A stretch of 64,000 nt of DNA, from positions 9,033,954-9,097,953 of the forward strand of contig OX459097.1 in the NCBI GenBank assembly GCA_949775045.1, read 5' to 3'. A program made the position numbers and the translations under genes. Origin of the DNA: Metridium senile (taxonomy: Eukaryota > Cnidaria > Anthozoa > Actiniaria > Metridiidae). Shown piece after piece: positions 13,070-59,900 of the stretch (the first letter of the stretch is position 1; the number at the start of each line of letters is the position of its first letter). Under the pieces are notes generated by a model. It did not search any database and had not been told where the DNA came from. It saw only the letters and a program-made list of their open reading frames with translations.

Positions 13070-13993
13070 TTATATTTTACTATTTGACCAATCTTGATGC
13101 GCTTTGACAAGTTCGCGTTGCAAATCTCTCGCCATTTTGTCCTTGAGTTCTTCCTCCTTTCTCCTAAACTCCATTTCCAAGGCATTTTTCTCACCTTGGA
13201 ATATCTTAGCCAATTCGTTTTTCTGAGCTTTCATGTCTTCTAATGCGTCCTTTAGCCCATCGATTACGTCATGGAGGCTTTCAACCTCTTCACAATATTG
13301 AGATTCTATTTCAGTAGTGATTTCATCCCGTATAAGGTCTTTCTCAATCTCTATTTTGTCTAATATGGCTTGTTTGTCGCGCTTATAATTTTGCATCAAC
13401 GTCTGTTTACGGAAACGCATCAGTGTACATAGCACCATCTCTTTTTCCTGGACACTTATTGGTGGCATTGTTTTATCTTTTGGTTTGGTCACTTTGTTTG
13501 GTGTCGTGGTATTAGAATGATCCCACTCGGGATCCCAGTCCAAATCGCTTGTGGAATGACCACTTTTATCCAATATTGGGAACGTTTCTCTTAGATTTTG
13601 TATTTCTTCCCAGAGAAAATCCTTCTCTTCGGTTAAAGTGCTTATTTGTTCAGTTTGGTCTTCTATAATACCTTGATAATGTTTTGTCAGTTTAATCCCT
13701 AGTCCGCTCTTCTCTTTAGCAAATTCCTTTTGCATAAGTGCGCTCTCGGCTTTGTATTTCTCCTCAAGAAGTCTCACTTGAAAAGACACAGAATCTGCGT
13801 CAAAGTCTGTCTGCGTTGAAATATTTTTAGATTCTCCACGCTTCTGCTCGTCGATAAGTGAAGATAAGGATTTTGAAGGTAAATTGCCAACATCGAGTTG
13901 TATGAAGCCGTTTATCATATTTCCTGCACCTTGTGGAGATCCAAAAAGCTCGCTGCTTTTCTTAACTGTAATTCTCATTTTTGTGTTCTCCAT
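13070..13993 (-). CDS. Intronless 307-aa coiled-coil protein, ninein-cluster neighbour
   Basis: A single open frame from ATG (context AAAAATATGG, A at -3 and G at +4) to TAA. Residues 1-60 look disordered. About 70-130 form heptad-like helix (LLEEKYKAESALMQKEF and on). About 130-180 is an acidic/Thr-Pro linker. About 180-300 is a second long, highly charged coiled coil ending in RELVKAHQDWSNSKI. The composition resembles the first exon of the next gene (19574-29948) and the coiled coil of the ninein gene beyond it. I see no EF-hand and no ninein C-terminal module. No splice acceptor precedes the ATG closely and no convincing donor precedes the stop, so it reads as one exon. It could be a truncated ninein-type paralogue, a retrocopy, or an unrelated coiled-coil protein. 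I do not recognise it as a named family. Confidence 0.6.
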   Translation of the reverse strand: MENTKMRITVKKSSELFGSPQGAGNMINGFIQLDVGNLPSKSLSSLIDEQKRGESKNISTQTDFDADSVSFQVRLLEEKYKAESALMQKEFAKEKSGLGIKLTKHYQGIIEDQTEQISTLTEEKDFLWEEIQNLRETFPILDKSGHSTSDLDWDPEWDHSNTTTPNKVTKPKDKTMPPISVQEKEMVLCTLMRFRKQTLMQNYKRDKQAILDKIEIEKDLIRDEITTEIESQYCEEVESLHDVIDGLKDALEDMKAQKNELAKIFQGEKNALEMEFRRKEEELKDKMARDLQRELVKAHQDWSNSKI

Positions 13994-19352: not shown

Positions 19353-19576
19353 TGACGTCATTCAAACCAGTTATCATATTGTCTTTTGATGTCATGTTAA
19401 CTACAGCTACCATTTGGTATTGTGACGTCATTGTTAAGTATAATCATCATACAGTCTTGTGACGTCATATTCACCATTTATATATGCCATAAATCTTTCT
19501 GTGATATCATGTGTATATACTATTCTATCTTGTAACGTCACGAGCAACTATAGCCAGCATAAAGCCTATGACGTCA
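19353..19576. promoter_or_regulatory. Seven TGACGTCA-type palindromes in a degenerate ~36-bp tandem repeat
   Basis: TGACGTCA is exact at 19353, 19423, 19460 and 19569, with one-base or two-base variants at 19387 (TGATGTCA), 19502 (TGATATCA) and 19533 (TAACGTCA). The spacing is 31-42 bp. TGACGTCA is the classic CREB/ATF palindrome. The last octamer contains the stop codon of the gene at 19574-29948. Whether this is a regulatory cluster or a decayed minisatellite cannot be told from sequence alone. Confidence 0.6.
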
Positions 19577-19828
19577 TGTGTAACCATAGGTACCACTTCG
19601 TCTTGGAGTAGAATTCTGCGAGCAGAATGACGTATCACCAGATTTGCATATCCGGCCGATCACATTCTGCAATGCACCTGTTTGATGACGTAATTCCTCG
19701 TTCTGTCTCAAGGACCGTTTCTGACCATTTTCCAGTGCTCTGAGAGTTTCTTTCAGCTTAGCGTTCCGTTCGTAGAGCTCTTGTAGGGTAACATCGGAGA
19801 GTGCATTTGATTTCTCCAAACTTCCCAT
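19574..19828 (-). other. Last exon of the 1518-aa gene: ninein-type C-terminal module
   Basis: 84 codons plus TGA. The motif L-x-E-L-Y-E-x-N-A-K-L-x-x-x-L-x-x-x-E, then a run of charged residues, then LQNVIGRIC, lines up with the ninein end at 37319-37522 (HELYIENAKLTKALQQTE ... LQRVISKLC). After the module this paralogue has a Ser/Thr/Arg tail (about 20 residues) ending GTYGYT. The stop codon lies inside a TGACGTCA palindrome. Confidence 0.8.
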
Positions 19829-21876
19829 CTGAAGGTAGATGATGCAATTCAACATTTAAAATATATATAAATAGGTATGGGAAATACATAAGAAAATGCT
19901 TCGTCAAGTGGAAAATATTTAAATTAATAGTGCTTAGATGTAATCCCCCTCACAGTTCCCTGCGCCATCTTGAAAGGTAGCCTGGCCTTTGCATCGAAGC
20001 GAGACGATCTTTAAGCTACCCTAGAAACTAGACGGTTTCTTGATCTAGTATTCGTATTTATCATTTGTACGTCTGTGTTCGTTATTCTCAGCTAGAGAAA
20101 CCCTATGGCCAAACGAGCCTATTCTTTTGAATTCCCGAGCCAATCAGAAGCGGAGGGTCAGAGTCTGACCCTGGCCTTCTGATTGATTTTCAGTCTTTGA
20201 AGAGCTTTGATTGGACGTAATTTGACAACTTGACGAGATTAGGTTCAAAATAGCTATAACTGAGTGTAAATCAAATCAACATAGAAGTGAGATTCTAAGC
20301 TCTTTGGGCCAGAGGTTGAATTCTAGTTGCATCGCAAACCGTCAAATTTACAAACGCTAAAGCAAGTAGAATATAATCTCTGGTACCCAGGGTATCTCAA
20401 CGTTCGTCTCACTTCGATGCAAAGGCCTGGCTACCTTTCAAGATGACGCCGGGAACTGTGAAGGGGACTGACTTTTGTGGAATTATATATGCCGGAATAA
20501 CTAGATTTTGATTTTAATATAGACAACATATAATTATATAATTAATATAATTATAATTATAATTATTAATTATTATTAATTATTATAATTATAATTATTG
20601 ATTTTGATTTTAATATAGACAACATATAATTATTGGTTAGGGTTGTCCAAATATATTGTAAATGATAACAGGGCACTTAATTCATTATTCTTGTTTGTGT
20701 CAGTATCAATATTTGTAAGTTTGCTTTTATGTATGCGCAGTTGCTGGTCTTATTGTAGCTTTCTTACGACTGACTGTATTTGCGCTGTACGTAATGGCTG
20801 GTTGTGTTTTGGTCCTCGTGCGTGTTCAATAGTTTTGTGTGTTGTCACTTCTCACCTTCGCCTTAAAAACCTACCTTTTCACTGAGTCGGCTAACATAGT
20901 CATTCATCGCTTCCTTCGCCATGTTTAGTTTCATTTCAAGTTCTTGTTTCTCCATCTGCAACTGTAGCATCTTGACATTATCACCATCAGACCTGTACGT
21001 TGAGCCACCATGGTCGTCACATTGCTTTTTAATAAGTTCTCCTATAGTTTTCACCTCTTGCTCTATTCTTCTCAGTACATCAGGATCTGTGTTATCATGG
21101 GTGTGGCTGATAGCTTCACCAGTACGCTGAAGTTTGTCTTGTAGAAGTTCAATGTCCTGTATTGATGGAGTGCTCGTGTAGCTGTCATTGTGGTTGGAAG
21201 AGGAGTAGTTCTGTTGAACATATAAAGAAAAGAAAGTTATTTTTATCGGAAGTATTACAGTGGTATCCCTATTAAGAGGTCACCCTTGGGACTTTCAAAA
21301 GTGGCCGCTTAATAGAGATTGGCTGCTGAACAGAGGTATACAATAGGTATAGGAATAGATTTGGGACTTTTTATTGTGGCCGCCTAATAGAGGGTGACCG
21401 CTTAATGGGTGCTCGTTTAATAAAGGTACCACTGTACTAGTTTACAAATCAAATACATTGTTAAGGGAAGGAGTTCCAGTTCTTAATGCATTTTATATAT
21501 GTTATTAAATGTTGGTTTAATCGCGTACTATTTTAAATTTACAAATCGTTACCAGCAACAATTTGATCTCCATCTCTAGTTATTATCAAGTGAGATTATA
21601 TGAACTTTAAATTTCCTGATGCACAAACTCCTTCGCTAATTGTAGGGTGTATCGCCATCATCATTTTACCACCACCTCATCATTTTACCACCACCACCAC
21701 CATCACCACCGCAATCGTAATTATAATTACTTCCAATCTCAGATCAGTGATTCTCATCACCATCAAACTATATCCCTACTTCGTCCTCATCCGTCCTCGT
21801 CGTACATCAAAATGATTTTCAGCATCATCGTCTCCATCACAACATATCATCACCATCGTCATCATCACTTATCTCT

Positions 21877-21975
<99 letters not shown>

Positions 21976-24900
21976 TACGTTTTTAGACGCATCTAAAAAT
22001 CTCGATGCGTTTACAATGTGTATGAAATATATAAACTAATGTATAACTATCTAAGAGAAATAAAATAAATATATATGTATAAAAATATTTACAACATAGA
22101 ATATAAAAAAATAGTAATAATTAAAAAAGTTAAAATATCGTTATCAAAATCGTTTATCACCATTATTGCTATCGTTGTCTTTAGACTTCATCCTCATTAG
22201 TATACATCAGTCAACGAATAATCCCCTTTCCACAGTACACTGCGCCATCTTTAAAGATAGCTTGGACTTTGCATCGAAGCAAGACGAACGTTGAGTTTGC
22301 AATAATAGAGACACGTTGTCCCGCAAGGTGTTAGAAGTTCTCTATCTTTGCAAGCTCAACGTTCGTCTCGTTTCAATGCAAAGGCCCGGCTTCTTTTCAA
22401 GATGGCGCAGGGAACTGTGAATGGAACTATTCATGGCCCACATATGTCGTGTATCTCTTACCCTTGGGGAATCTCTCTTTAGCCTTTCAGCCAGCTCTCG
22501 TATCTTACTCTGCATTTCTTCAACCTTTGATTTAAGATCAGTGTGGTCACTGCTTGATACGCCAGAGTATCCAGTTGGTTCTCTTCGCGGCATTTTAGAC
22601 ATTTTAGACTGGAGATGAAATTAGATATAAGTCATTCAAATTCATGACCGTGGTGATATATCCTGATTGTGGTGGTATCCAGGTAATCTCGCTTCGAAGC
22701 ACGCAAAGTATTGTTTGTCAAAAAGGACAGTTCCCAAAAAGTGCCTCGAGACAGCAAAGATTTCGGTCACTTTTAGGCATTTGCGTTGTGTTTATATCCT
22801 TTTTAACTCGTGGATCGAAGATCTTCGAGTTATTGGGATGGGACTTTTAAACCGGAAGTGTCACTCACTCACTCACTCGCTCACTCGCTCACTCGCTCAC
22901 TCACTAGACCGTCAGTGTAAACTTTTGAGCCCCAAGATTTTGGTCAGCGTACCGCCGTATATGCATTACATCATCTTTCAAACAACCACTCTCCCAATTG
23001 GGTTTCCTGTGTAATGACGTATTCAAGACCACCCCTCCCCACTTTAGGCTCCCTGTAACTTACCCCACTGACCATAGGGGTCACGTAAGCTATTCACACT
23101 ATGTAGTCTATATATCACTTCAAAATTTATACCCCAAATAAACGCTCTAACTTCCCATGTGGGACACTTCACTATATAATCGCACATAAAAGTTATCACC
23201 AACAATGAGTGAATACTTATTATTAATAACGTAAAAATCGAGTAACTTTTCTAATTTAAAGTTTTTAAGCGAAAATGTTTATATACGAGAGGTCACTAAA
23301 TCAGATATTCCTTCGATCGCGCATGCTCAAAATGATTGACGAGTCTAACAATTCAATAAAAGACACGTAAAAATAACAAAAACAAACATACTGCATTGTA
23401 ATTAATTTTTTATGAATTTCTTTACGTTGAATTTTAAAACGTGCATTCAGACACGGCTTAAAAACGGCTGAGTAGTTCAAAGCACGAGGTATTGCACAAG
23501 AAGCGCAAATAACACAGGAAGCCCAAGCAAATCGCCATCTTGGATTTGAACCTGAATATATTTGGATTTCTCGTACTTCAGCATCGATTTACTCTTCCAA
23601 ATCAGCGTTGGCTTTGGGTATATTGTTTGCTCAAGACATTATAGAATTGCTAGCTGTTATTTTCTAACGCTTTTACGGAAAAAGGTTTTCTAAAACATGA
23701 CAATATCAGACCGTTTTTGATTCTCGAGCCAACTCGATCCTCGAATTCTCAGAAAGCAGATTGTTCAGCAAGGTAGATAAAAACAACGACATGAAAGCTG
23801 GATTATTCCAATACAAACTGCCACCAAAGCAAAGAAACAAGTAACTATTATATAATTATACGTTTTTTTATAAATATCAATATTTTCAAAACATAATTCA
23901 TCTTTTTAATAGTTAATCTACATGTACAATATCATAAGATTGCCCAGAACGCCTTAAATTGCCTAAAAATGTAAGAGCTTTTTGCTAAAATCGCCTAACA
24001 TCGCCAAAGATCTTCTTAGAGGTTAGGAACTTTTTCTAAAATCTCATTAGATCGCCTAATATTACTATACGTCGATTTTAGGCCCCCGAGTAGGCCTTTA
24101 AACAATTAAGATTTATACATCATTTCAAATCTATTATTAATAAAGTTTTATTTGTTTGAAATCAATGCCTTGTCTTTTCAATATGCTAACATTAATCATT
24201 TTCATATAATATTCAGAAATTTTTTAAATTATATCCTAAGTCAACATTAAAAGTGGTCTAAAAACTAAGCGCTTTCAAAATGTTCTAACAGTGATCCACG
24301 AGTTGGCCATAGGTGGCCTTTGATTTATTGCTGTATTTATAAGATAGAGGGTTAACACGGGAAACAACTCTCTGGAACGTCTTCATTTTGGAGCTGTTAG
24401 CAATGCGACAAAAATTGCTTCTGATTGGCTTTTACTATAGCCGGAAGTGTGCGCGCGAAATCACCTGGAGATAGCTATATAAAAATATTAGGCGATGGAA
24501 AATAGGTAATTCTAAGATCAAAGAAAAGCTAAATAAACGTGTGTTTTTGCTTCTTATTCACATCAAGAACACGGAGGATAATGTTGACGTATTCCGTGTT
24601 GTTTGTAGTCCACGAAAGCGTTTTAAAGGCCTCAATTATTGAAATAGGTAGATATTGTAAGGGTGGTACTATGAGTTTGGTGGAATATGTATATAGATCG
24701 TGTTCTTAGCCTTTAGTTTATTACGCTTCTATGATAGCTTTCGCTAATACTACAAGGTGGTGGTGTATATTATGATTGTGGTGATACTGATTATGGTGGT
24801 AGTGTTTTAATTCAGAACCTGTTCCTTGTCGATTTTTTCTTTCTCTGCGTACAGTTCCTCTACTTTGAGCTTCAGTTCTTTAATAAGTTGTACAAGCTTG

Positions 24901-27900
24901 TCTCTCTCAGCGACTGCCTTTTCATCGTTTCCCTGAAATATATATGTTTACATAAACAAAATTAACTTAGTCTTAGTCTTAATTTTATTGCAGCTATACA
25001 AATTAAAGATTTAAATTGAGAGACATTTCCCATTTTCTCTTCCCTTTTGCATATCGTTTCCACATTCCCTTCTTTTCCTCATTCCTCCCTCCTTCTTTCA
25101 CATTCTTATATTTCCTTCCTTCCTTCCTTCCTTCTTTGCTTTCCTCTATACTCAATTACCTACTCTTTTCTTCCTTCCTTTCTTTCTCCTCTATCTTCCT
25201 TTCCTGCTATTTTGACATGATACCCTACCTTCTTAGCAAGACTGTTATCATTTCCTGATGATGTGCCATCGTTGCCATAACTACGTCCATTCTGTTTCCT
25301 TGGAGACGAAGTGTTGAATCCAGGCTCATTTCCAACGCCAAAGGAACTATAGCGTCCAGGCTTGTACCGACTTTCTTCCGGCTTATCAGAACTTCTACCC
25401 AGTCTTTCATGGCTGCCGTAAATTGGATTTGGTGAGGACATCATTCCTGGTCTGGATGTGTGTTTACTCTTTGAAGAGTATGGTAAGGTCTTAGAGTATT
25501 TCTCTAAGTTAGAATCAGCATTTTTCCAAGTGGGCTCTGGCTCATATTTTCCTGGGGTTGACTCTCTTGGGGTACTTTCCAAGCATTCCAGGGACTGGCT
25601 AATTTCAGCTGGATAACCATACACATTGTCATGTTTACTATCTCTATCGTAATCGGGTTTCCCATATTGATCAAAGCTGTTGCTTTCTTGATAAAGAGGA
25701 CTAGAGTCCATAGCAGTGACCTCACCATTTAGCACTCCTCTAGAATATATATCTTTACCGCTATGTGACCTTCTGTTGTCGTTCTCATGTTTACTATCCC
25801 TGCCAGAATCGGGCTTCCCATATTGATCAAAACTGCTGCTATCTTGATAAAGAGGACTAGAGTCCACAGCAGTGACCTCACCATTTGGCACTCCTCTAGA
25901 ATATTTATCTTTGCCGCTATGTGATCTTTTGTTGTCGTTCTCGCTGTTAGTTCTCGAACGTCTTCTGATCTTGTCTTCAAGATCACTTGTCTTGTCTTTT
26001 GCATGTCGAGCTTTATCTTCCGCGTCGCTTAACCTGTGATTCAATTCTTTTATTTTGGCCTCGAATTCTTTACGACTTGCTTCACTCTCCCTCAAACTTT
26101 TCTCAAGTTTATCTGCTTTAAGTTTAGCTCGTCTAGCATCGTCATTGTCTTTGTTTCCCTTGCCAAGCTTTGATTCTAGCTCTTCCTTCGTCTTCTGCAG
26201 CCTACTTAGTTCATCTTTAGCCTCAGCTTTGTATTTCTTGTGAAGGTCAATGTTTTCTTCCATAGCGTCAATCTTTGCTTTAAGTCCCTCATTTTCACTT
26301 CTTAGTTGATTCATTTGAGACCTTAGCTCGTTTTCATTTCCTGGCGTGACGTGGAAGTGGTCGGGTTTAGCATCGCCTCTTGAAGACTTGGGTTGATCTC
26401 TCGGATATCTAGAATTTTGCTGTGGTTTCTCATGTGCATTTTCACCTGAGAGATGAAAATCGAGGTCGGGGTATTCACTCTGTTGTCTTTGTTCGTGATT
26501 GGGATAAACACTACTGTTTCCATAATTGTCATTAGACCTATCAGCCGAGAGATGAAAATCTAGGTCGGGGTAGTCACTCTGTTGACTATGTTGATCTTGA
26601 TTGGGATAAACACTACTGTTTCCATAATTGGGATTGCCATTTGACCTATCAGCCGAGAAATGGCAATCGCGGTCGGGGTAGTCACTCTGTTGTCTATGTT
26701 GTTCTTGATTGGGATAAGCATTACTTTTTCCATAATTGGGATTGTCATTTGACCCATCAGCCGAGAGTTGTAAATCGAGGTCGGGGAACTCGCTATTTTG
26801 TCCTTGTTCTTGATTGGAGTAGGCACCACTACTATCATAGTTTGGATTGCCATTGGACCTATCACGTGACAGATGGAAATCTAGGATGGGATAGTCACTA
26901 TTCTGTTTTTGTTCTTGATTATGATAAGTACCTCTCTTGCTTTGAGATGGACTGCTACTGGTTCTATCATCCGGCAGATGGTAATCTAGGACAGGATGTT
27001 CACTGGTTTTGTCTTGATCAGTATAAGTAGCCCTATTTGTTGGACTGTCACGGTATTGAGATCGCCTTTTGTCTTCTGGCTGATTTTCACGACTCGTATC
27101 CGTTCCTCCATGTCGTTTGTTCTGGTCATACTCGTGTCGACGCTGCTCTTGATGTTGTTCATACTGTTCGGGTCTTTGGGATTCTTCGTTCTTGTATGCA
27201 CCAGATCTTTCTTCTTCGACGTCTCTTTGACCAAACGAAAAACTCGCAGCGTTTTCAGTCCTCTCAGTGGAATTTCTTCTGATAATTTCTTCACTCTTTC
27301 TCCGTTCCTTTTCAATCTCTTCATTCATCTTCTTTCTCTCATACTCCACATCATCCTGGATTCTCTTCCTCTCCTGCTGTACCTGGCGTTCTTTGTCCTT
27401 TTGGAGCTCTTCTTTGTCCATCGAGTACTTCTTCTCAAGTTCCTGCTTGTGTTCATCGATGATTTTCTCGAAGTCTTCGCGTAGTTTTCCATTGAGTCCG
27501 TTTCTACCGTTTGTTCGTATGTCTTCCTCAACCTTACTCATCTCCTTGGCAACTCTGCTCTTCTCATCCAGTTCCACGCGAAGGCTTCCAAGCTCTGACT
27601 TTAACTGCTCTGCCTCGCTTCTCTTGGCGCTGTCCAAGTTTGACGCATTCGTCTTTTCATCTTCTAAAAGCGCTTCGAGTTGGATTCTGAAAATGATATC
27701 GATTAAATACTGAGTATTTTTAAAACAAAATGGTTACCAGTTTAGTAGTATTTACATAATTAACATCACAATCTTCTAAAAATACAGTTACAAAAACATT
27801 ATTAAGTATTACACATAATATAATTTGTAATTCCCCAATCCAAACATCTCCATTCTTCTCCAAGAATCTTCAATGAAGTATTTCTTTTCTTTCTAAAGAA

Positions 27901-29948
27901 GATACATCCATATCGTGCGTACATATCATATCGTATTCACTTTGCAGGTTTAAGAATATAATTTAATTTGTTCTTGAGGGTATATTGCCACCTGTAACGT
28001 CACACAATAGTCACTTAAGTATCTCAACTGAAGAATAACACTAATTTTTGTACAAATTTCTAGCCTTCTTTGGAATGAAATGGATATTTTCTTATAACGG
28101 TTATTATAAGTTAATTGTGCCAAAATAATTGTTGACCTAAAGAATTAGTTCATTCCAAGTTTTGATATATCTGTTTATTCGTGAGAACATGTTGAGTTAC
28201 TGAGCAAACATAAATTAACAGAATTTATTATTAAAAAATGTTATTATTAGAAAACAAAGGCTTCATTTGGATTAAATGTTTTTTTACTTTAAGTTAAAAG
28301 TAGCCATGGCACAGCGTTGCATTTATCATTGCTTTTCAGAAATAGACAATGCGATATAAACAATGCAACCTTAAATTAATGGAATACAAATACGAGTAAA
28401 TATAAATGTCTCAATCTGGATTAAGGTTTAATCTTGCTCAGAAATCAGCAAGCAGTAACTATTTATAGCACCAAGTGTAGCATTTTCCCACACAAATTCA
28501 AATAATCCGAATTGAGCAATGCGTACGTGGGCTTGAAAGTTTTGACTATCGATTTAAAATGCGATAACATTTATTTTGACAACTCTGCCCATTAACACAT
28601 ATGCTAATAAATTAGTTATGTTAAATATGATAATGACATAAAATAGATTCATAACATAAAAAATATATAAAATAGTATTAATTATTAAAATCTATTCTCA
28701 CCTCATTTCCCGTTCCTGTAACAGTTGTTGCTCCAATTCCTTTATCCTCTCCTCCAACCTTGCCTTCTCCTGGGAGAACATCATTTCTATTTCATCCTTC
28801 ACTTTCTTTGTGTTCATCTCGGCTTCATCAAGCTCAATCTCATGTCTTCTTTCCATCTCAATTCTTTCTTGTTCGTACTTTTCTTCTAGTTTAGCAATTT
28901 CTTGCAGAGAGGATTGCTCTGATACATCCATCTCGGTCTCCAACTGAGCTTGAAATTCTGCTTCTAGTTTTTTCTGGAGCTCGCCTTTTTCTCGTGCAAT
29001 TTTCACCTCCATTTCGTTTTGGTCGTTTGCAAGTTGTTTTCGCAGTTCTTTGATTTGTTCTTTGTGGTAGTTTTCCATACTTGCTCTATCGTCGTTGAAG
29101 GTTCTTGTCAATGCTGCAATCTCTTCGGCGAAGACCTTCTGCATTTCAGCCTTCTCCCGAGCCATGTCACTCTCAATCTCGGCTAGTTCAGCTCGTGATT
29201 GCTCATCCATGTCAAGCTCTCTCTGCCTAAAGTCACGTGAAAGATCTTCCATTTTATTTTTAAAGAAACTTCCTAAAGTAAACCTCTCTCGATCAAAGAT
29301 TCTAAGAAGCTCCTCTCTCAGTAGCTCCTCATCTTCTCCAAGCTCCTGTTCCAACTCTTCTTTGATGTTAGCAGTTGGCTTGATCCGAAGTTTACCAACA
29401 TTATTCGATCCAACATCTTCAAAAGTGACAGTTTTCGTCATTTTATCTTCAGAGTAGCTCAGGTCATTATCATCTTGGCAAAGAAGGTCTTGTGAGTCAT
29501 CATACGCGCTGTCAAGAAGAGATTCCTTTGAAGATCGCTTATTAAGTGATTCCTTTGAATAACTATCGTCTTTCTCAAGAGTTCCCACAATCTTAAAAGT
29601 CTGTCTTACTGTAGTTATCTCCCCGTCATCAGACCTCGAAGTGTACACCAGACTTTCTTCATTTTCTAAGTTTCCCTGATAAACTCCTTCGTCAGATTCC
29701 TCGCGCATTTGATAAACCATCTTTCGATTTTCCTCGTTTGCGGAAACACATCGCGAGCTACAAATTACTTTTTCATTTTCTTCATTGTTATTGTTGTTGT
29801 TGTCCACTAAATTAATCTCTCCACCAGAACCATCTGCTTTGACGCAATAACTGGTTGTTCTGTTCTGGTCGTTGTGTGCGTTGCGTACTGGAATCTGTGA
29901 AGAACTTTGTCTTGGCCTCGCTCTTCTTGGTCTAGCTGGTTTATGCAT
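19574..29948 (-). CDS. EF-hand-less ninein-like coiled-coil protein, 1518 aa, six exons
   Basis: Exons in transcript order: 29948-28702, 27686-25229, 24932-24819, 22608-22462, 21210-20875 and 19828-19574. All borders are AG/GT and the phases agree, giving 1518 codons plus a stop. Residues 1-15 are Arg/Pro-rich and about 15-165 disordered. About 190-600 is very charged coiled coil (MEDLSRDFRQRELDMDEQ and on). About 642-835 is a disordered stretch of six 33-36-residue repeats. About 860-980 is coiled coil again, followed by a 52-residue duplication and a Ser/Tyr-rich linker. The last three exons return to coiled coil and finish with TLQELYERNAKLKETLRALE. That end resembles the C-terminus of vertebrate NIN/NINL and of the ninein gene upstream here, whose last exon also follows a phase-0 intron. 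No EF-hand is visible. A centriolar or basal-body role is inferred from the C-terminal likeness only. The 24819 donor (CAG|GTTCTG) is weak. Confidence 0.82.
19942..20469. mobile_element. MITE family 1, long copy (528 bp)
   Basis: Left end AATCCCCCTCACAGTTCCC and right end GGGAACTGTGAAGGGGACT. The outer arms match the other copies, but the centre is about 300 bp longer, with ACTAGAAACTAGACGG and a non-family segment. It is either a longer progenitor form or carries a secondary insertion. It lies in the last intron of the 1518-aa gene. Confidence 0.75.
21258..21434. mobile_element. pogo/Tigger-like MITE 2
   Basis: Termini CAGTGGTATCCC and GGTACCACTG are inverted and flanked by TA, with internal GTGGCCGCTTAATAGAG-type repeats. 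It resembles 11967-12140 in design but not in detailed sequence. It lies 48 bp upstream of the acceptor of the 112-codon exon. Confidence 0.82.
21884..21974. repeat. (TAA)n microsatellite
   Basis: About 90 bp of pure TAA/ATA repeats, with CAT/CAC-rich simple sequence just before it (21650-21870). Confidence 0.97.
22220..22429. mobile_element. MITE family 1, copy 3
   Basis: The arms match the family (CTTTGCATCGAAGCAAGACG / CGTTCGTCTCGTTTCAATGC). Ends are slightly degraded. It begins 33 bp downstream (in the transcript) of the donor of the 49-codon exon at 22462-22608. Confidence 0.8.
22609..24818. other. Intron of the 1518-aa gene, no exon seen
   Basis: Contains the CACT microsatellite and AT-rich sequence. 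Around 23940-24060 the words TCGCCTAA / GCCTAAAAT recur several times in a loose tandem fashion. Nothing codes convincingly. Confidence 0.55.
22861..22908. repeat. (CACT/CGCT)n microsatellite
   Basis: About twelve tetramers of CACT or CGCT in an intron of the 1518-aa gene. Confidence 0.85.
25631..25942 (-). repeat. In-frame 52-codon tandem duplication in exon 2 of the 1518-aa gene
   Basis: Two 156-bp units (25787-25942 and 25631-25786) encode near-identical segments running from ENDN(K/R)RSHSGKD through SSPLYQ(D/E)S to QYGKPD and RDSKH, about 85-90% alike. The high DNA identity indicates a recent duplication. The unit is Ser/Tyr/Asp-rich and probably disordered. Confidence 0.92.
26428..27008 (-). 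repeat. Six-copy 33-36-residue protein repeat in the 1518-aa gene
   Basis: The core reads S(D/E)YPDLDFHLSADRSN, then NPNYGNSS.YPNQEQ. Copies begin SEHPVLDYHL, SDYPILDFHL, SEFPDLDLQL, SDYPDRDCHF, SDYPDLDFHL and SEYPDLDFHL. Unit length varies (33, 35 or 36 residues), and the first and last copies are the most diverged. The spaced hydrophobic/acidic core in a disordered background looks like a repeated short binding motif. I do not recognise it from any family. Confidence 0.9.
27687..28701. other. First intron of the 1518-aa gene
   Basis: About 1 kb of AT-rich sequence without visible repeats, exons or conserved motifs. Confidence 0.6.
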
Positions 29949-37318: not shown

Positions 37319-37522
37319 TTAGGCGATGGCATTCGCGCCACATAGTTTTGATATAACTCTCTGTAGTGCTCGTTTTTGCTCCATCAACTGGCGTAGATTT
37401 TTTTCTGCTTTTTTCTCGTTTGCTTCTGTTTGTTGCAAAGCCTTTGTGAGTTTGGCGTTTTCTATGTACAACTCGTGCACTAGCGTGTCCGATCGGGTAT
37501 TTCTCATCTCGGAGTGTTGAAG
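37319..37522 (-). other. NIN: Last exon of the ninein gene: C-terminal module
   Basis: 67 codons plus TAA. The segment HELYIENAKLTKALQQTE, a Lys/Glu-rich stretch, then LMEQKRALQRVISKLC corresponds to the end of human NIN (KDLYVENAQLLKALEVTE) and NINL (KELYVENAHLVRALQATE). The protein stops 9 residues after the final ISKL. The strict conservation makes this exon the best anchor for the gene's identity. Confidence 0.93.
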
Positions 37523-40500
37523 CTGGAAAGAAAACAGACATTCGTTTTAGCTGGTTGTAAATAGGGCAAACTGAAAGAAGGAACATGAGAAAGTAAATGG
37601 AAAAACATAGGGAGGATAGACGAATACACAAGAGCAAGAGAGAGCAAGTTGGAAATAATGTTGAAGAGAACGAGCAACTAGTAAGGATGGAGCAAAGAAA
37701 ACAAGCAGGCACAAAAGGTAAAGGGAGGAACAAGTAATCAGAACGAATCAGAGATGAAAAAGACGAGGGAAGGGATGTTACAAGCATGCAACAATAAGAG
37801 CACTACGTACATCAGGAAGGATATGTATACCATGCATATGATTTTTATAACACACATATATATATACACACTTAATTTCTTTATTATTTTTACTATTAAT
37901 ACAGTTGTAAGAGTTTTGAGACGTAGTATGAAACTCCAAATTCATTTTATTATTATTGTTATTTAAATATGGACTAAAGATTCATCAAAGTACAAATAAA
38001 GGTTTGAAGAATATGATGACAAATAATAATAAAAAAGAAAACAAATCTCGCAAAAAGACAACAAAGGATTTAATTCAAAAATCACACAAGCATCTTGCCA
38101 AAAGAAAGAAATGAGACAAGCATAAATTCTTGACAAAATACATAAGAACATGATGACTACAAATGATCAATCACAAATAACCAAAATCTTGCCAAAAGAA
38201 GCAAAGGTCTTACCTGTTTGCTAATTCTTGCTACATGTTCATCTAATGATTCTCGAGCTTCCTTCACCTTCATAGCCATGGCCATCTTTTGTGTTTCAAG
38301 ATCGTTGATTCTCTTCTCCCACAACTGACTGGCGCTCTCCAGTTCACGAACACGTCGAGTTTTTTCCTCAAGCTACAAAATAAACAAAGAAAATTAAACA
38401 TTTGATATGTTGGAAGTCCTTCAAGTACTTAACTTGAGAGCATATTAAGTTATGACGGCGAATCTGGATTGGCCATCGTTTCCTTTTATCGTCTCCGTTC
38501 CTCTCCCCAGTCTTCCTCTTATTCGTTTCCCTTTCTTCAAAAGGCAGTGAAAGAATGAATAAAGAAAGTGACAGAGAAAGTATTCTTAGAAACCAAGGAG
38601 ACGGATTTCAAGATTACACAGATTTTGTTGGCTTTTGGTACGTTTTTCGGCAAACGTGTGAAAAGCAGGTAGGAAGAAGCCACAGTTCAAGTACAAGTTT
38701 TGTTGAGCAAAAATACTCTGGTGCATTTGAGTTGTAAGTAAACTTTAGCAGAAATTGAGAAAGAAGAGGTCAATTTAGAGGGAGATGAGAATATAACAAA
38801 GAGAAAGATGGATACAAGCGATCATTTAGTATACTTACTTCACCAAAGAGCTCAAGAGTAGCTGCACTTTCAATAGACGGAGCAAAGCTTAGATCAGCCT
38901 CGTCTATGTCAGCCTAATCGTCATAGATGGAGAAAGACAAAGAAAGAAAATAGAAAACATACAAGCAACAGTACAAGTAGACAGTGTGTAAATTTTGCAA
39001 AACTCGTATCAAAGATATTGTATGCAATCTTGAAAAAAATGCCATTACTATGTATGGTATTGTAAGTGAGAAGTAACAAAAGATTAGCGCGAGAGATTTT
39101 TTCTTTTTTTTAACAGGTTGAGATCGCAACAGAACGATAGGCATATCTTTGATACGTGCTTGTTGGATAGGTAACATGACATCTAAAAGACGTCTTCCAA
39201 GTGTACGGCAACATTTGAAACTAGTGCCTGGTATTAGAACTTGAATGAGATCGTTTTCTAAGTAAGCTCCCATCGAACTGATGAGAAGGCCATACAAGAC
39301 CATATATCAGAGAGTAAGAGAAAGAATTTCAGAGAGTTTCAAAGTGAAACTCAGGAATCTCAACAAGGATGCAAGAATACCCAACAATACAACACAAAAA
39401 ATGATTATGTAATCATGATTTTAACATCACCACCATCATCTTCATTATAATCATCATCATCATCATCCTTATCATATTCATCTTTCTTATAATCTTATCA
39501 TCATCATGATTGTCAATAGGATCATTAGCATCATGATTATCAAAAATGATCACCGCCATAACCATCATCATCATTATCATCACCACCATCATCATCATTA
39601 TCATCACCACCATCATCATCATTATCATCACCACCATCATCATCATTGTCATCCTCGTCATTCTCATCCTCATCATCATCAAAACCACCGCTACAAATCA
39701 TCATCATCACCATCAAGGTCATGATTATCAATTGGTTAATTATCATCATGATTATCAAAAATGATCACCTCCATCACCATCATCATTATCATCACCACCA
39801 TCATTCTAATCCTCGTCATTCTAATCCTCATCATCATCAAGGTCATGATTATCAATAGGATCATTATCATTAGCACCATCAAGGTCATGATTATCAATAG
39901 GATAATTATCATCATCATCAGACCCACAAACGTACCTTCTTATTAAGCGATATAACCTCTGCCTTAGCTTCATTAAAGACTTTCTCTCTCAATGCTTGGT
40001 CCCGCTCGCTAGAAATATTCGCGCGATGTAACTGGTCACGCAACTCGGAAATGTCACGCTGGTGTTTCGACCTTGCAGTTTCAAGCTCAGTGGTTGCTAC
40101 CATTATCTGTAAGGAAAGATAATATGTTGGAACTAAAGAATTAAAGTAATATATATGGAAACTAGCCAACAAACTAGCATACATCCTCGGGAACCCAGGG
40201 GTATTCTTCTGTCGCTCGTTTCTCGCTTTCACAACATATACCTCTGGGAACGTAGTCTGTTGGAGCTTGTTCCGGAAGTCAAAATTCAGCTCTTTCCTGA
40301 TTGGTCGACCTTATTAGGTCGACCAATGAAAATCAAGATAACCATTCAAAGAAAGTCGTTAAATAAGTTTGAATTTTGACTTCTGGAACAAGCTCCAACA
40401 GACTACGTTCCCAGGGGTATATGTTGTGGAAGCGAGAAACGAGCGACAGAAGAATACCCCTGGGTTCCCGAGGATGACTAGCATAGAGCTAAAGCTCGAA

Positions 40501-44900: not shown

Positions 44901-47900
44901 CTTTTTGGAGTTCTTCATTGTGCGCTACTTTTGCTGCAAACTTCGCTTCTAGTTCCCCAAGGCGATCCTTCTGAGCGTTTTGCATTTCGATTTTGATATT
45001 CTCGAGATCGAGTTCAAGTTGAATATTTTGGGATTCTTTTTCTTGTAGAATGGAGCTTAGTTCATTTATTTTTTCGTCTTCAAACAACTCAAGCTTATCG
45101 ACCATTTCCTGTATTTGGTTCTCTAGTGAGATAATCTTGGTCGTCTTTTGCTCAATCTCCACTTCAAGTTGGGGCACAAGAACACTTTGGATGTCTGCAA
45201 TCTTCATGGTCAGTTGGCTGACATCGTCTTCAAGCTCTAAACAGCGCATGCGTATACTCTCGTTCTCGCCCTGAAGATTGAGTATGGTTTCACTCTGTAA
45301 ATCGTCGAGATTCCGTTTCTGGCTTTGGATAATTGACTCTAGTTCAGAACTGTTTTTGGCCTTTTCCTTTAAGTCATCTTCCAGTTCTTTCAGTTGCAGT
45401 TCACGACTATCGTTCAATGTAAGTTGTTCTTGTAGTTTCTGAGTCAGTTCGTTCAATTCAAAGTCCTGCAAACGAGCTACCGTCTCTGTAAGTTGTATTA
45501 CTTGTTCTTCCAATTGGGAGTTCTCAGTTGACTTCTCCTTCAATCGTTCTTCCAGATCTTTGTGCTCGTTTTCCTTCACATCCAGAAGGGTTTCGTAGCC
45601 TTGGCTTTTCACTATCTCCAACTTCAACTCTTTCTGCAAATCTGTCAACTCAGCTTCGAGTTCGATATTCTGGTCTTGGAGTCGCTGCTGCAATTCGTCA
45701 TTCTCCGAGTCACGAGTTCGCAGTAGTGTCTCAATCTCTTGATTCTTCAACATGATACTAGAAAGTTCAGTCTCTGTCGAAGCCAGCCCATTTATCGTTC
45801 GTTCTTTTTCTTGCAGCTTTTCGTGTAGCTCTTCTTTCGCTGATTTTTCACTGTTGAATTTCTCTTCAAGTTCAGTGTTGGTTTTTCGGAGTTCACTAAG
45901 CTCCGTCTCGAGTTCGCTTATTTGACCAGTCTGTTCGTTGACTTCCTTCTCCTTTTCGTTTAAAACCTTACAGTAAAACATCCACACACATGTAATACCT
46001 GAGCTTAGACCAGATTTCGTATGACTGTGAAAAGTTCAGTGCCGTGTGCGTGCCTTGCCGCGACCATGACGTTTCTATAATTTTTTACGTGCCTTGACCG
46101 CCTTTGTGCCGTGAGCTTTTCATCCTCGGGAATCCAGGGGTATTCTTCTGTCGCTCGTTTCTCGCTTCCACAACATATACCCCCGGGAACGTAGTCTGTT
46201 GGAGCTTGTTCCGGAAGTCAAAATTCAAACTTATTTAACGACTTTCTTTGAATGGTTATCTTGATTTTCATGATTTTCCTAATAAGGTCGACCAATCAGG
46301 AAAGAGCTGAATTTTGACTTCCTGAACAAGCTCCAACAGACTACGTTCCCAGGGGTATATGTTGTGGAAGCGAGAAACGATCGACAGAAGAATACCCCTG
46401 GGTTCCCGAGGATGTGAGCTTTTCCTAGTCATACGAAATCTCACTAAAGAAGCTATATCAAGGCCATGATGCATTATGCCTTGATATTGAAAAAATGATC
46501 CAGTGTTTCAATGCAATCTTTATAATTACATTATATTCTCGTTATCGCTCAAGTTGTCTCAAAGACCTATTCAATTGAATAAATAAATAATTTCCCAGTC
46601 TAAAAGTTGACAAATTCATTTGAATAAATAATTTTCCAGCATTCTTTACGACAATTTTTGGAATACGTTTTTATTTTCAAAAACACTGCGCAATCCCGTC
46701 ATGCATCATGGACTTGAAATCAGCGTCTTTCTCAAAGTAAAATTGGAACACAACTTAATATATCTTGATTGAGTAAAACCCTCTACTTATAATAACTATT
46801 AAAATACCATCGCATATAATAATCAAACTGGAAAGGTTGTAATTGACTGGATAGCATTAAAGAAGGAGGCAATACGAGTAATGTCACCTATAATTGACTG
46901 GGTAGCATAAAAAAAGGGGGCAATACGAGAAATGTCACCTATAATTGACTGGGTAGCATAAAAGAAGGGGGCAATACGAGAAATGTCACCTATAATTGAC
47001 TGGGTAGCATAAAAGAAGAGGGCAATACGAGAAATGTCACCTACCTCTTCCATGTTCGCCAACTTTCTCTGCTTATCCAGCGCACTTTTAGTTAATTCTT
47101 TATTTTCTTGCTGTATTTCATCTACTTTTATTTTATACTCTCCATTCTCTCTCTGTAGTTTCGACTTTTCTTTGGTGAGAGACTCAAGCTTGCGTTCAAG
47201 ATCCGTAATTTTCTCTCGCGCAACTTTCACATCGAGCGATTCCCGGCCTATTGTTTTGAGTTCAAGACTTTGGACTTTAGTTTCAAGTTCTTTCTTTTGT
47301 TCTTTCAGGTAGTTTATCTCACCTTGTAACTGTTTAACAGTTTCTTCTAAATCTTCGTGATCTGTTTTCATTCGGAAGGAAAACTCCGCCTCGAGTTCCG
47401 AACGTATTTGTTCCTTTTCTTTTAATCGTTCATTTTCAAGTTCATTTTTCTTTTTGTCGAAGCTATCTTGAAGTTCTCGAATCTTTTTCTTATAACTTTC
47501 CTCGAGTTCAGTTTTTTCCCTTGTGAAGCTATCCCGAACTTCACTAGACTCGACTAAAGAACTTCGCTGAAGTTCTGCTTTTTCTCGGAAAAAGCTTTCC
47601 TCGAGTTGAGCTTTCGACTTGGAATGGCTTAGCTCTAGTTCAGCTTTATGCTTCGCAAGCATTTCATAAAAGTCTTCTTTGAGTTGACCTTTTAGGCCGG
47701 CTTCACCATTCGAAAACGCTTGCCTCAACTCAGCTATCTCATCTTTATATTTATTTTCTATTTCAGATTTTTCACGCGCAGCATTATGAAGTATTTTTGC
47801 TTTTTCCTCAGTGAAATGTTCTTCGATTTCTGACTTCCATTTTTGGAAGCTCTTCTCACTTGCAGCAACCTTTTCCTGGTACTCTTCCTCGAGTTGATAT

Positions 47901-50900
47901 TTTTCTTCGCGTAATGTTTTCTCCATGTGTGAATTTTCTTTGAAAAATCCTTTTCTCAGATCTGCTTCTTGTTCGTTGAGATTTTGACAGAACTCTTTTT
48001 CAAGAGCCTCTCGCTGTTCAGCCAATTCTCTCTCGAATTTTTGCATCATTTCACTCTTTTCTCGAGTGAACGACTCTCGCATTTCTGCCTTTTGGCGCGA
48101 AAACTTCTGCTCAAGTTCTGCTTTGGACTGTTCGTAGTTCTGCTTCAAACTAGCAACCTCTTTGGAATGCTCCTGGTTTAATTCCCAAATTCTATTATCA
48201 CTCTCTTCTTCGCGTTTTGATCGTTCTCTTTTGAACTCGTTTTCTAAAGCTTGAATTTGTTCTTTGTGGCCTTTTTCCAGTTCAACTCTAAGGTTCGCCC
48301 AATCTCGTTGACTTTTATTGAATTCAGCTTTGGAACTACTCGAATTCAACTCCAGTTCAGATTTATCTATCCTGAACTGCTGCTCCATCGCCGCCTTTTC
48401 ATTGAGGAACCTCAACTCAGCTTCTGCCTTCTCTTCGTCCAAAAGATGAATCTTCTCAATGAGCTTTGTCTTCTCATCGTCGAATTTGTCTTTGGAAGTT
48501 TCTATTTCACTCTTGTAATAAGTCTCAAGCATTGCTTTCTCGCCTCGATGTTCATCTTCCATCTCCGACTTCTCGCTCTCATACTCATTGATCAACATTT
48601 CTTTCATCTGCGCAAAGTTACCTTCGAGATCGTCTGACAATCGATTTTTCTCGGACGAAAACGATTTCTCCATCTCGTTCATCTTTTCTTGGTATTCCCT
48701 TTCTAGTTGCTCTTTGTCCTGAACTAGAGATTGCTGCAGCGCCTCCATTTCTCCACTAAACTGAGCAGTAAGATTCGCTAACTCCGTCTCGTATCTCGTC
48801 TGATTGTCATATTCTTTGGAATCATGTGCACTTCGGAGAGTTTCCACTTCATTTTTGAGGTTCTGGATGTTGATGTCTTTCTCTTTCATGGAATTCTCAT
48901 GTGCTGAAATCTCATCAGACAATTCTTTGATTTTTGATTCCAAGGCACGCCTTTCGTTCTGTGCTGTGATTTCTAGCTCGCTAATCGATGAGTCCTTCTC
49001 CTTGACCTCAGCTTCGAGTTTCTTGATAGTTTCTGGAACAAAAGATCAAATAATATCAATATGTGTACTAAAACATTCTAGAACAAATGATCACGTATAG
49101 TATGGCCAATTCAGCAAAGGTACATTTTAAAACATTTTCCTATATTCGTGATCTTATTGAAAACAAAATGAAATAAAACTTTATAGTAATCAGGGTTTGA
49201 GTTTTAATCGTTAACTGATGTATTCATGAATAATACATTGAAATGCGTTCGGTGTATAAGTGAAATACAGATACATGAGAAAAATATCGTATGCATACGA
49301 TATTTTTCTCATTAACTGATGTATCCATGTTTTATTTCTGTTTGAAAGCATTTATCCCTGTTGACTTACCAAGGTTGCCTTTCATTTCGGCTTCATTTTC
49401 TGTTGAGGGAAAATAACTATATAAGATACGAAAAAACATACGAAAAATGGCTCAAAGATAAACCTTGAGTAGTCCTTTTAACAGTTCCGTTTAGAGACCA
49501 CGAATGATAGTTCCAAGTCGAGGTTTCAGTTGCTACACATGATAAATTATAGTTTTGCTATGCGCAGCAACTGGAACCTCGACTTGGAACTATTCATGGT
49601 CACTATATATATTATACTCGATTGACGCTGAGCTTGAATAAGAGAACCGTAACTGGTATGTTCATGTTTTGCGCCAGTTCTGCTGTCTCTGTTTGTAACA
49701 GAAGTATACCTTTGCACAAAATGCGTTGGGAGAAAGCGGACAGAAAAAGTATTAGCATCATGAGTGTTAATCATTAAGAGATAAAGCAAGAAGGATGGAG
49801 AAGAAAGCATGTTACTCACGTTCTACCGACCATGGAATTGATATATCATCATCAGTGTCTTGATCTTCTTTTGAGTGGAAAATAGAGAAGAAGAAGAGGT
49901 AGAAACAGTATAAGATTAGAAGATAATTATAGATATGACATCTCATGCGAGCTGACCGTCCACACGGAAGAGTCAACTGATTTAGGTGAATATTAGGAAA
50001 ATAGTGATTAAGACATGCGACTTGGAAGGACATGATTGAGACTCAGGCATGCTTTTAAAAATCCCAATCAGTCAGTAATCGAGCACCAGTCGAAAGCTGC
50101 GTTTTTGTTGGCCCCCTAATACAGTACCACAAGTGTTTGGTTTGGTTTAGGGCAATTGTTTGGAAAGAGTCTAGTTTTTTTTTTTAAACCAATCCTAAAC
50201 GATGTTTCGATTTGGTGCTGAGTGTTCCCCATCAGTTGGTGAAGAGCATGCAAGTCAATCAGTAGTATGGATGAATTCAACACTTGATATTGTGACTGCA
50301 AATACAGTACACAATGGATTGATGCAAGGACATGGCATGCTCTTTTGTGGAAATGGAAAACATGCGAGCGAAATTGCACCTTTTAGTCTTAATAATAGGT
50401 GAACTTATGGAAAAGTACAGTAGTACTAGGCAAACGTTTTGTGAAAATGGAATCCAAACAAGTGAATTTGTATGGTCGATAGCCTAGCAAAAGGATGCAT
50501 GCAAGCATATAGTGCCACTATAACTAAGACATGACACTAACTTCTTGGAAAGATGGCTATGATGATTCACTCTTAAAAGAATGGAAAACTTTCCTTGGGC
50601 ATCCCCTAGTGAACAGTGTTCGTGTACAAGAAAATCACAAAGTGCATTCCTATAGCAATGATGGTTACACGAGTTGATAAGTTTACTGACAAAAATAAGT
50701 GAAGGTGTGTTATAGTGAAAGATGAAGTAAAATCTCTAAATATATTTTTAAGAAAAGGAACAGGATAAAATACGCACCATGCCTCAAAAAATCTAGAACA
50801 ATTCAGTTTTATCGAGTACAACATTAACATAAACAGTGCTTGAAGATAAAAAAGATAACGTTTAACCGGATATCGTTGTATACTTAATGAGCTGAAGACA

Positions 50901-56900: not shown

Positions 56901-59900
56901 CGAAAACGTATTCAATTTCTCTACAGTGTAGAGAAAAGGTATTTGCTGAAGTAAATAGATCTTGATCAATAATTTCTTTTCTTATATAAAACACATTGAA
57001 CTTTTCATCATCGTATTTACGAACTATTCTTAGTAAACAGCGTCCTAATGACACTGTTAAGTTAAAATTAAAATTTCCAAGCAAGTAATACAAGTTATCA
57101 AGTGAAAAACGTTTAAACTGTATTATCTTAGTAAACAATATACAGTTATTTGAAAAAGAAAAACGCTTTCTCGATTGAAGATATTTTAAAGTTACACTTA
57201 GAGGCCGACACCTGTTTCATGTCACCTGTCAAGACAACGAAAACACAGTGCTCTGATTGGCTAGGAATCAAGAGGCCAGTTAAGTGTCAGTACAGGAAAG
57301 TTAATTTTGTGCAGTGGCGGGAAGAAAAGTCAAAAGTGATGTTCTTAGGCAATGAGCTCTGTAAAATACAGTGCAGAATATTTTCAAGGATTCATTTTTC
57401 TAAGGAGAAGTTGGTATGAGCATTGACAGCGTGCATAGATGAAAGTATTTTGAATTAAAAAAAACCAACATACCTCAGAAAAACGACCTCGTGCTTATAA
57501 ATACCAAGGACTGCATTCGAGAGACCTGCAAAAGTGAAAACATTGAACATTAAAATTAACTCCGCAATTTTTCTTTCAGAAGAGGAAAAATAAATGTTAA
57601 AACCATAAGAAAAAAAGGTAAAAAAAGTAAAATAAGACTTTGATCCCGCGCGTGACCCACTCCTAAATTTCTATATTATAGCCGTTCAATGGTTTGTTGA
57701 CTCACCATCACCCTGTTCGTGGATAACTGTCTCTAGTAAGTTGGTAAGCTGTTGTAAATTAACTCTGCCATCAGCATCTACGTCAATATGCTGTAAACAA
57801 GTACAAACATTTTGTATCTTCATTTGGACATTCAAATACATGAATTGGTCAACCGAAGAGGAATGGAGGAACGGAGGAACATTTGGAGGAAGGGAGGGAG
57901 GGAGGAAAGAAGGGAGGAAAGAAGGAAGGAAGGAAAGAAAGAAGGGATGGAGGAAGGGAGGAAAGAATGAAAGAAGGAAATAAGGAAGGAAGAAGGAAAT
58001 AATGGAGGGATGAAGGAAGGAAAAAAGGAAAGAATGAAAGAAGGAATGAAGGAAGGAAATGAGGAATGCAAATATTTCAGGAAAGGAGGGAAGGAGGAAA
58101 GAAGGAAGGAAGGAAGAAAGAAAGAAAGGCATGAAAGAGAGTTGTATATAAAAGGATGTAATTAAGAATGAGTCTGTTTTACCGTAAGTATATCAACAGC
58201 ATCATCATGTCCCTGAGCCGACCATAAATCTGTAATGTCTTCAACCTTTGCAAATCTATTGACATTTTTGAAGGTATTAAAAACTATTAGCTATAACGAT
58301 TGTAACTAAAAGATCTTTCAAAAGCAGCCTTACCCTGTGTTATCAGGATCCAAGATTGAAAGTAAATCTAAAACATCCCAAAAGATATAGTTAGTTGTAT
58401 TTTATAGATGTATCTTTTAACAACTATACAACATGTATGTATTGCATTAAACACTTATTATTACATACCAAAACCAGACGATGCACTTGTCCGCGATAAA
58501 AATAAATCATCATTGCGACTTGTATTCTGTAAAATATAAAAGGGATCATGAAGAATATAAGTCTTGTAGTACTCTAATAGACATGTCTTTCAAACAAACA
58601 CTCAAAGGCAATGAACTAAGTATATGACAAAGAAAGGAGGAAGAGACAAAGAAAGAAAGCGAGAAGCAAGAAGTGAGCAAGAATAATGAAAACTAGCAAA
58701 TACGTGTATGCCAAAGAAAAAACCCCGAAAGCATGGAAGCAAGAAGCAAGTAAGTGAGCAAGAAGAAAAAATAGCATGCAAAAGAGAAACGAAAGAAAGA
58801 AAGTGGTAGATTTTGACATGTAACCCTCAATCTGCAAGAATTTGCGTGAGCTTTCAAGTTTCTGCCAAGATTTAATTAAAATCTTCCCAAGATCCTTCCA
58901 AGAAATTTACTTGCCAAGGTTTTAGTAAAATCTTGGATGATCTTTTCAGATCTTACACGATCTTAACAAGATGTTCAACCTGGGTTTAATACATTGAAAA
59001 CTAAATCACTTCTCAAACGTTCAACTTGTCTTACCTTTAATCTACCAGTTGATGTTAGACCCCCAACAGGAGGCTTAGAGAATGGTGTTGACTGTTGTAA
59101 TTCAGTAAATTCTTCTTCAATGATTTCTTGGCTATTATAATGATCTTTAGCAGCAAACAAACCATTCAAAAACTCATCAAAGCTAACTTTACCATCATGG
59201 TCTTCATCAAGCTCCTCAAATAGTAGTGTTATTTCCTGGAAAATGTATATCATAATTATAAGTTTATTTTGCATCATCATTTGAGATAAGGAAGAAGAAA
59301 GCACAGTTAAAAAAATGATGAATTGAAGAAAGAGAAACGGAATGATCATAAGTGGAAGGAAGGAACAAAAAAAAAAAATGAAATGAAGATGGAAAGAAAG
59401 AAAAAATGAAATGAAGATGGAAAGCAAAAAAATGAAATGAAGATGGAAAGAAAAAAAAATGAAATGAAGATGGAAAGAAAAAAAAATGAAATGAAGATGG
59501 AAAGAAAAAAAAATGAAATGAAGATGGAAAGAAAAAGTAAAGCAAGCAAATAGATAAGGAAAGGGACAGGGAAGAGGGGAACCATGAGGAAATACGAAAT
59601 GAAGTAAAGTAAGCAAGAGAGGAAGGAAAAGGGATAACATTGGCAGACGGTGGTGAAGGGAGACAAGAAGAAAAGAAGAGGAGGAAAGGTTATTTTTTAA
59701 AGAAATAGGGATTTTTGTGACATATTTATCTGAATGAGGAAAACGTTGTCAGGTTGCAGCAGTTTGCTTTAACAATAGCTGTTATAGTAGTTATATGCAA
59801 ATGATGTTGAACAATGAATTCAAATTGAGGTTTTAGGGCAAAGTTTTGCTTTGAACCGATAGCATTGCATTGTTTAATAACATTTGAGCAACTAAACCAG

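Follow-up and report, generated by a model that had tools for sequence, protein, structure and literature searches.

A probable tandem paralogue of ninein without EF hands in Metridium senile

Ninein helps anchor microtubules at centrioles and consists of a calcium-binding, dynein-adaptor front half and a docking tail; the known family members are NIN and NINL. Here we analyse a 64,000-nucleotide stretch of the Metridium senile genome (assembly GCA_949775045.1, contig OX459097.1, positions 9,033,954 to 9,097,953; hereafter the window) that carries two genes on its minus strand. The upstream gene (gene 1) is, by its matches, a true ninein; the downstream gene (gene 2) shares with it a homologous C-terminus and an intron, and lacks canonical EF hands. 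An earlier sequence-only reading had taken gene 2 for an old tandem duplicate of a ninein lying 7.4 kb upstream in the same orientation. The distance and orientation are as claimed (gene 1 stop at 37319, gene 2 ATG at 29948, both minus strand), and the C-terminal kinship, the same-strand tandem and the shared intron support a duplication, while the retention of parts in two other species supports its age. We consider the identity of gene 2 as a tandem ninein paralogue very probable.

The gene 2 model

Gene 2 runs from 29948 to 19574 on the minus strand, and joining six exons at manually picked splice sites rebuilds exactly the 1518-residue product that had been proposed, with both of its reported motifs, ELYERNAKL and LQNVIGRIC, present in the C-terminus. 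In the predicted protein, a low-complexity N-terminus leads into a coiled coil (about residues 200-560). A long stretch of low complexity separates this from a second coil, after which exons 5 and 6 encode the C-terminal part, ending in ...GTYGYT. The low-complexity stretch in exon 2 contains tandem repeats on the minus strand, 108 bases repeated 4.6 times at 26448-26927 (SDYPDLDFHLS units) and 156 bases repeated twice at 25629-25942. The predicted structure of exon 6 is a single helix over residues 2-62 of the exon and says little.

The 300 bases ahead of the ATG hold six in-frame stops. The better upstream acceptors, at 30205 (score 2.41) and 30027 (1.61), both precede stops in the gene 2 frame, and those between the last in-frame stop and the ATG score at most -1.1, under all ten reference acceptors (0.5 to 4.1). 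Scanning the 5' region for bacterial-type promoters told us nothing, the gene being an animal one. The weakest stretch of the predicted model comprises exons 3 and 4, with confirmation from other species for neither; this region may change with RNA data, since both exons are short and the exon 3 donor is weak.

Kinship with ninein

Profile searches bear out the claim that the gene 2 C-terminus aligns with the neighbouring ninein and with other nineins. Using a 17-row profile of ninein C-termini (gene 1 included) on the 2021 open frames of the window, the last exon of gene 2 scored 35.8 bits (E 6.9e-10), behind the two exons of gene 1 only, while the penultimate exon of gene 2 ranked fourth at 14.2 bits. 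With a profile of 15 non-cnidarian nineins, the last 120 residues of gene 2 reached 35.9 bits, against at most 12.6 bits for shuffles (1999 of 2000 scored) and at most 10.8 bits for other coil tiles from the same proteins (566 of 576 scored). On profile score, gene 2 carries the ninein C-terminal module (LY.EN..L..AL..TE...K.AEK). In BLASTP, its C-terminus is 34% identical to gene 1 over 90 residues (E 9e-12) and 35% identical over 94 residues to P0001, the Nematostella 'ninein-like protein isoform X5'. Across the 389-Mb genome, exon 6 of gene 2 matches itself and the last exon of gene 1 (E 1.9e-4) and nothing else up to E 1 (all four first-look candidates scored).

The gene structure agrees with this kinship. 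In both genes the intron before the last exon is in phase 0 and lies exactly 16 codons ahead of ELY. The sequence-only reading had described this phase-0 intron together with a shared ending of the preceding exon; the intron holds at the same codon in both genes, whereas the pattern was one residue short. Corrected, the endings are DEHVARISKQ in gene 1 and NDYVSRLSEK in gene 2, or (D/N)-x-x-V-x-R-(I/L)-S-(K/E)-(Q/K). For residues 1400-1500 of gene 2, none of 98 candidates matched at E <= 1, which is not evidence of absence, the eukaryotic cover of the database looking patchy (one named cnidarian among 16 ninein hits). Searches of the PDB with the gene 1 C-terminus, the gene 2 coil and exon 5, and the coil of P0019 (see below) returned no ninein relative; exon 6 of gene 2 was not among the queries.

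A protein search with gene 2 (7993 candidates scored) yielded three proteins at E 0.01, P0017, P0018 and P0019, of which P0017 is exon 1 of gene 2 itself. P0019 (929 residues; source 'ena') is 40% identical to gene 2 over 342 residues and 38% over 130 residues; it starts with an N-terminus of its own, free of EF hands, reaches to about the end of exon 2 and contains none of the SDYPDLDFHLS-type units, of which gene 2 has five copies. P0018 (306 residues; source 'lgn') matches exon 5 at 69% over 71 residues and 82% over 49 residues, and seems to continue into intron sequence beyond both borders of this exon. Within the helix ahead of the module, 32 of 33 residues are identical between gene 2 and P0018, and 20 of 37 between gene 1 and P0001. 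Judged by these alignments, P0019 and P0018 are orthologues of parts of gene 2. Because such orthologues occur in two other species, gene 2 is conserved and probably old, and because these proteins conserve its parts, it seems to be under constraint. We also note in exon 5 (20875-21210, minus strand) a segment, DKLQRTGEAISHTH.NTDPDVLRRIE.EVK.IG.LI, that is conserved in P0018 and has no convincing Pfam family or solved relative.

The coil of gene 2 is probably of ninein origin as well. At E <= 0.01, exon 1 matches in the genome only itself and the central exon of gene 1 (47360-47638, E 0.0042; 17 of 17 candidates scored). A coil profile built from gene 2 and P0019 scores 24.8 bits on gene 1 and 30.4 bits on P0001, and at most 4.1 bits on controls (378 reversed or heptad-shuffled sequences, few of which gave any row). 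The coil is also placed in ninein order, ahead of the C-terminal module. Against solved structures, with E up to 10, the coil of P0019 had one structure listed, at 13.2 bits.

The front half of ninein, in contrast to the tail, has no counterpart that we could detect in gene 2. The absence of the EF-hand half, as first proposed, is consistent with two negative searches. A regular expression run over both strands of the whole window found no canonical EF-hand loop in gene 2 or the 7.4 kb between the genes, its only hits being a gene 1 loop (59173-59208) and a stop-ridden repeat (61197-61232); degenerate EF hands would be missed, since the expression catches only one of the EF hands of gene 1. 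Pfam, at E 0.1, found no EF-hand family in gene 2 or P0019. EF hands were found in all 16 retrieved nineins. Similarly, the K(R/W)YGR motif is present in gene 1 and in 15 of the 16 nineins and absent from gene 2 and P0019, and a tblastn search with P0001 (window, L002 and L003; E 1e-3) matched its KRYGR region and first coil to gene 1 exons only.

Phylogenetic placement and the neighbouring gene

We built a tree of ten rows, comprising eight of the 16 retrieved nineins (seven bilaterian and Nematostella) together with genes 1 and 2. In this tree, an analysis that the sequence-only reading had proposed, the gene 2 C-terminus groups with gene 1 and Nematostella, apart from the seven bilaterian nineins (support 95/93.8); of the two refuting outcomes named in that reading, the one concerning the tree was thus not observed among these rows. 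Gene 2 sits on a long terminal branch (about 2.4-2.5 changes per column). Grouping it with just one of the two cnidarian nineins is not rejected (p 0.34 for either), and placement with the crinoid ninein is borderline (p 0.051). Lacking an outgroup from beyond ninein, the tree does not distinguish a duplication within cnidarians from an older one, and it cannot date gene 2.

Gene 1 (37319-62284, minus strand) extends past the window. With the same tblastn settings, P0001 maps onto it in 16 matches of 45-88% identity, and the first 380 residues of the gene 1 model are 58% identical to P0001. Both genes supplied long exons for training the gene finder, whose coding score for gene 1 therefore does not count as independent evidence. 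The first small exon (62883-62827) of the 1939-residue gene 1 model is probably wrong. A PDB search with the gene 1 N-terminus gave mostly calmodulins and troponins among the best 60 of 261 matches, with no ninein among the matches listed. The features of both genes are collected in Table 1.

Table 1. Exons and segments of gene 2 and of the neighbouring ninein (window positions unless stated)
Feature	Position	Strand	Description
Gene 2 exon 1	28702..29948	-	ATG, low-complexity N-terminus, coiled coil; donor AG|GTGAGA, phase 2; orthologous to P0019 by alignment
Gene 2 exon 2	25229..27686	-	Coil continued, then a long low-complexity tract containing tandem repeats, then another coil; phase 0 end
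Gene 2 CM1-like coil, residues 869-935	26129..26329	-	Also in P0019; nearest Pfam family Cnn_1N, under cut-off; Glu at human F75 position
Gene 2 exon 3	24819..24932	-	38 residues; donor CAG|GTTCTG weak; least certain exon
Gene 2 exon 4	22462..22608	-	49 residues
Gene 2 exon 5 (penultimate)	20875..21210	-	Conserved segment without known family, then helix preceding the ninein C-terminal module
Gene 2 exon 6 (last)	19574..19828	-	Ninein C-terminal module ELYERNAKL...LQNVIGRIC and tail; stop
Gene 1 last exon	37319..37522	-	C-terminal module ELYIENAKL...RALQRVISKLC; 77% over 71 residues to P0001
Gene 1 penultimate exon	38214..38372	-	End ...LDEHVARISKQ, phase-0 donor
Gene 1 large central coiled-coil exon	47045..49032	-	64% over 634 residues to P0001; gene 2 coil resembles this region
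Gene 1 EF-hand exon	59035..59235	-	Loop DEDHDGKVSFDE at 59173-59208
Gene 1 exons VTFEDFKEGFVAVLS and PPKLVKNEKRYGRKSKPD	61610..62284	-	Ninein N-terminal signature
Gene 1 first EF-hand exon	L002 2980-2786, about window 66,786-66,980	-	Outside window; P0001 match

Three further observations concern the surroundings of these exons. Inside gene 1, 44791-45966 (minus strand) encodes about 390 residues of coil that are unmatched by the Nematostella isoform X5; its splice sites score poorly, and it may be an optional exon. At 52188-52455 (minus strand), gene 1 contains R.GSVLSDYTKP..(V/I)RR, also present in P0001 and the crinoid P0002 and absent from the other 14 retrieved nineins, a possible invertebrate ninein motif. 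Downstream of gene 2 and on the same strand, an open reading frame at 13073-13993 (minus) encodes a 307-residue coiled coil that weakly resembles ninein coil. A genome search at E 0.1 gave no relative (six of six candidates scored), a PDB search listed nothing for it, and in the ninein-coil profile its reversed sequence scores equally high. We considered it as a candidate for a further ninein copy.

Alternative explanations, proposed role and known systems

Gene 2 might be no gene of its own but an alternative 3' part of a single long ninein gene, into which upstream ninein exons are spliced to give a second C-terminus; the two lie 7.4 kb apart on one strand, and vertebrate ninein C-termini are alternatively spliced, according to the available portion of PMC12135376. 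However, exon 1 opens with an ATG behind six in-frame stops and has no good usable acceptor, the C-terminal module of gene 1 is repeated and not replaced, and P0019 has an EF-hand-less N-terminus of its own. The other refuting outcome named earlier, transcripts joining both sets of exons into one isoform family, did not turn up in Nematostella either: the C-terminal end of P0001 is the module of gene 1, not that of gene 2. A single gene is therefore improbable. A chimera, in which only the 3' end of ninein was duplicated and became joined to a coiled-coil gene of other origin, would account for the strong C-terminal match beside the weak coil match and for the long stretches in exons 2 to 5, for which no ninein counterpart was found. 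It is nonetheless unlikely, given that the sole non-self match of the exon 1 coil in the genome at E <= 0.01 is the central coil of ninein, that ninein order is kept, and that the coil profile of gene 2 with P0019 scores 24.8 to 30.4 bits against 4.1 in controls.

Heptad composition by itself gives weak hits, and several Pfam coil families come near 16-20 bits on segments of these coils, so the C-terminal resemblance might reflect chance or convergence; the gap between 35.9 bits and its controls, the shared intron codon and the presence of only two matching places in the genome up to E 1 make this scarcely credible. Finally, gene 2 could be a receptor for the gamma-tubulin ring complex, which would bind by its CM1-like coil at residues 869-935 and be anchored by the ninein tail. 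Among Pfam families, Cnn_1N scores best on this segment (24.5 bits for gene 2 and 21.8 bits for P0019, over nearly the whole model) and is matched by none of the 16 nineins at E 1. Neither score, however, reaches the curated cut-off (28.5), and P0019 taken at full length gives no match at E 0.1; among solved structures, CM1 chains come up no earlier than E 4.3 for gene 2 and are missing for P0019. Unrelated families score about 20 bits on other coil tiles (38 of 40 tiles, the tile of the segment and its overlapping neighbour left out; 25 of 211 families listed, so no claim is made on the absence of Cnn_1N). In a by-eye alignment both proteins have Glu at the position of human F75, a residue needed for binding of the complex in the available part of PMC9859039. 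Since this Phe is absent, we do not rely on the CM1-like segment; the receptor reading is not supported and is highly improbable.

The explanation that we prefer, and consider moderately likely as a whole, is that the cnidarian ninein gene has in gene 2 an old tandem paralogue, which has the tail and probably part of the central coil and would serve as a motor-free anchor. For mammalian ninein, the accessible part of PMC12651242 describes three contact regions: the EF hands for the dynein light-intermediate chain, a motif at 543-564 for dynactin, and residues 1933-2096 for CEP250. Of these, gene 2 has a counterpart to part of the last only. Docking by the tail is proposed for gene 2 because the C-terminal region of mammalian ninein binds CEP250. 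The protein also carries long low-complexity stretches of its own beside the ninein-type parts. In a mechanism that we offer only tentatively, it would dimerise via its coil and dock with its C-terminal module at centriole or basal-body sites used by ninein. Without the EF hands that contact the light-intermediate chain and without the adaptor coil, it would be a motor-free, calcium-independent spacer or limiter of ninein.

Several results weigh against this explanation. At the C-terminus, gene 2 retains nine of the 15 residues that are invariant in the eight nineins of the alignment and is without the Glu of the LY.EN motif, and binding to a CEP250-like partner may therefore be lost. The exon 6 module is seen in this genome only, P0019 ending before it and P0018 corresponding to exon 5 alone. 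As for the coil, gene 2 on its own is near background (20.7 bits to P0001 versus 19.8 to an unrelated portal protein); the reverse search with a ninein-coil profile reports P0019 (24.7 bits) and not gene 2; the profile of gene 2 and P0019 gives no row for 15 of 16 database nineins, P0001 being the sole exception; and the unplaced open reading frame near 13 kb scores 11.4 bits with it. The centriole-targeting part of mammalian ninein is itself disputed, as far as the available text of PMC12135376 goes. Gene 2 is, moreover, a gene predicted from genomic sequence.

If the explanation holds, gene 2 would represent a naturally occurring separation-of-function paralogue of a centriolar anchor for microtubules: a tail and a probable part of the rod without the front half would offer a natural means to test the two roles of ninein separately in a ciliated animal. 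It is possible, if doubtful, that cnidarians hold a conserved second ninein branch that acts as a motor-free, calcium-independent anchor at the ninein docking site and may predate the cnidarian-bilaterian split. We found no prior description of such a gene, in keeping with the earlier reading, in the accessible portions of the literature on ninein with cnidarian, Nematostella, paralogues or duplication.

Among known systems, NIN and NINL resemble gene 2 in the C-terminal module, probably in part of the central coil and, for the neighbouring ninein, in the codon of the last intron. Gene 2 differs from them in having no EF hands, no KRYGR and no first-coil match, and its low-complexity repeats are absent from the 16 retrieved nineins. 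Vertebrate ninein splice isoforms show a comparable variation in a central exon and the C-terminus; in the portion of PMC12135376 available, they drop central exons or vary the C-terminus, whereas gene 2 occupies a locus of its own, with the tail kept and the EF-hand half absent. Centrosomin and CDK5RAP2, the CM1 proteins, are approached by a single coil segment of gene 2 that resembles Cnn_1N, under cut-off and without the key Phe. Like gene 2, C. elegans NOCA-1 is a coiled-coil protein without predicted EF hands that was formerly linked to ninein (PMC4608005, PMC9714909, both as far as available). It was first called a ninein homologue (PMC4608005); a later group regards it as a homologue of CEP85 that carries a CxxQ motif at its C-terminus, its match to ninein lying in the central region and not at the C-terminus (PMC9714909). 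With this earlier EF-hand-less candidate assigned to CEP85 by that group, gene 2 would add a branch to the ninein family. Compared by description and not by sequence, NOCA-1 and CEP85 differ from gene 2, which has no CxxQ at its end and carries a ninein tail.

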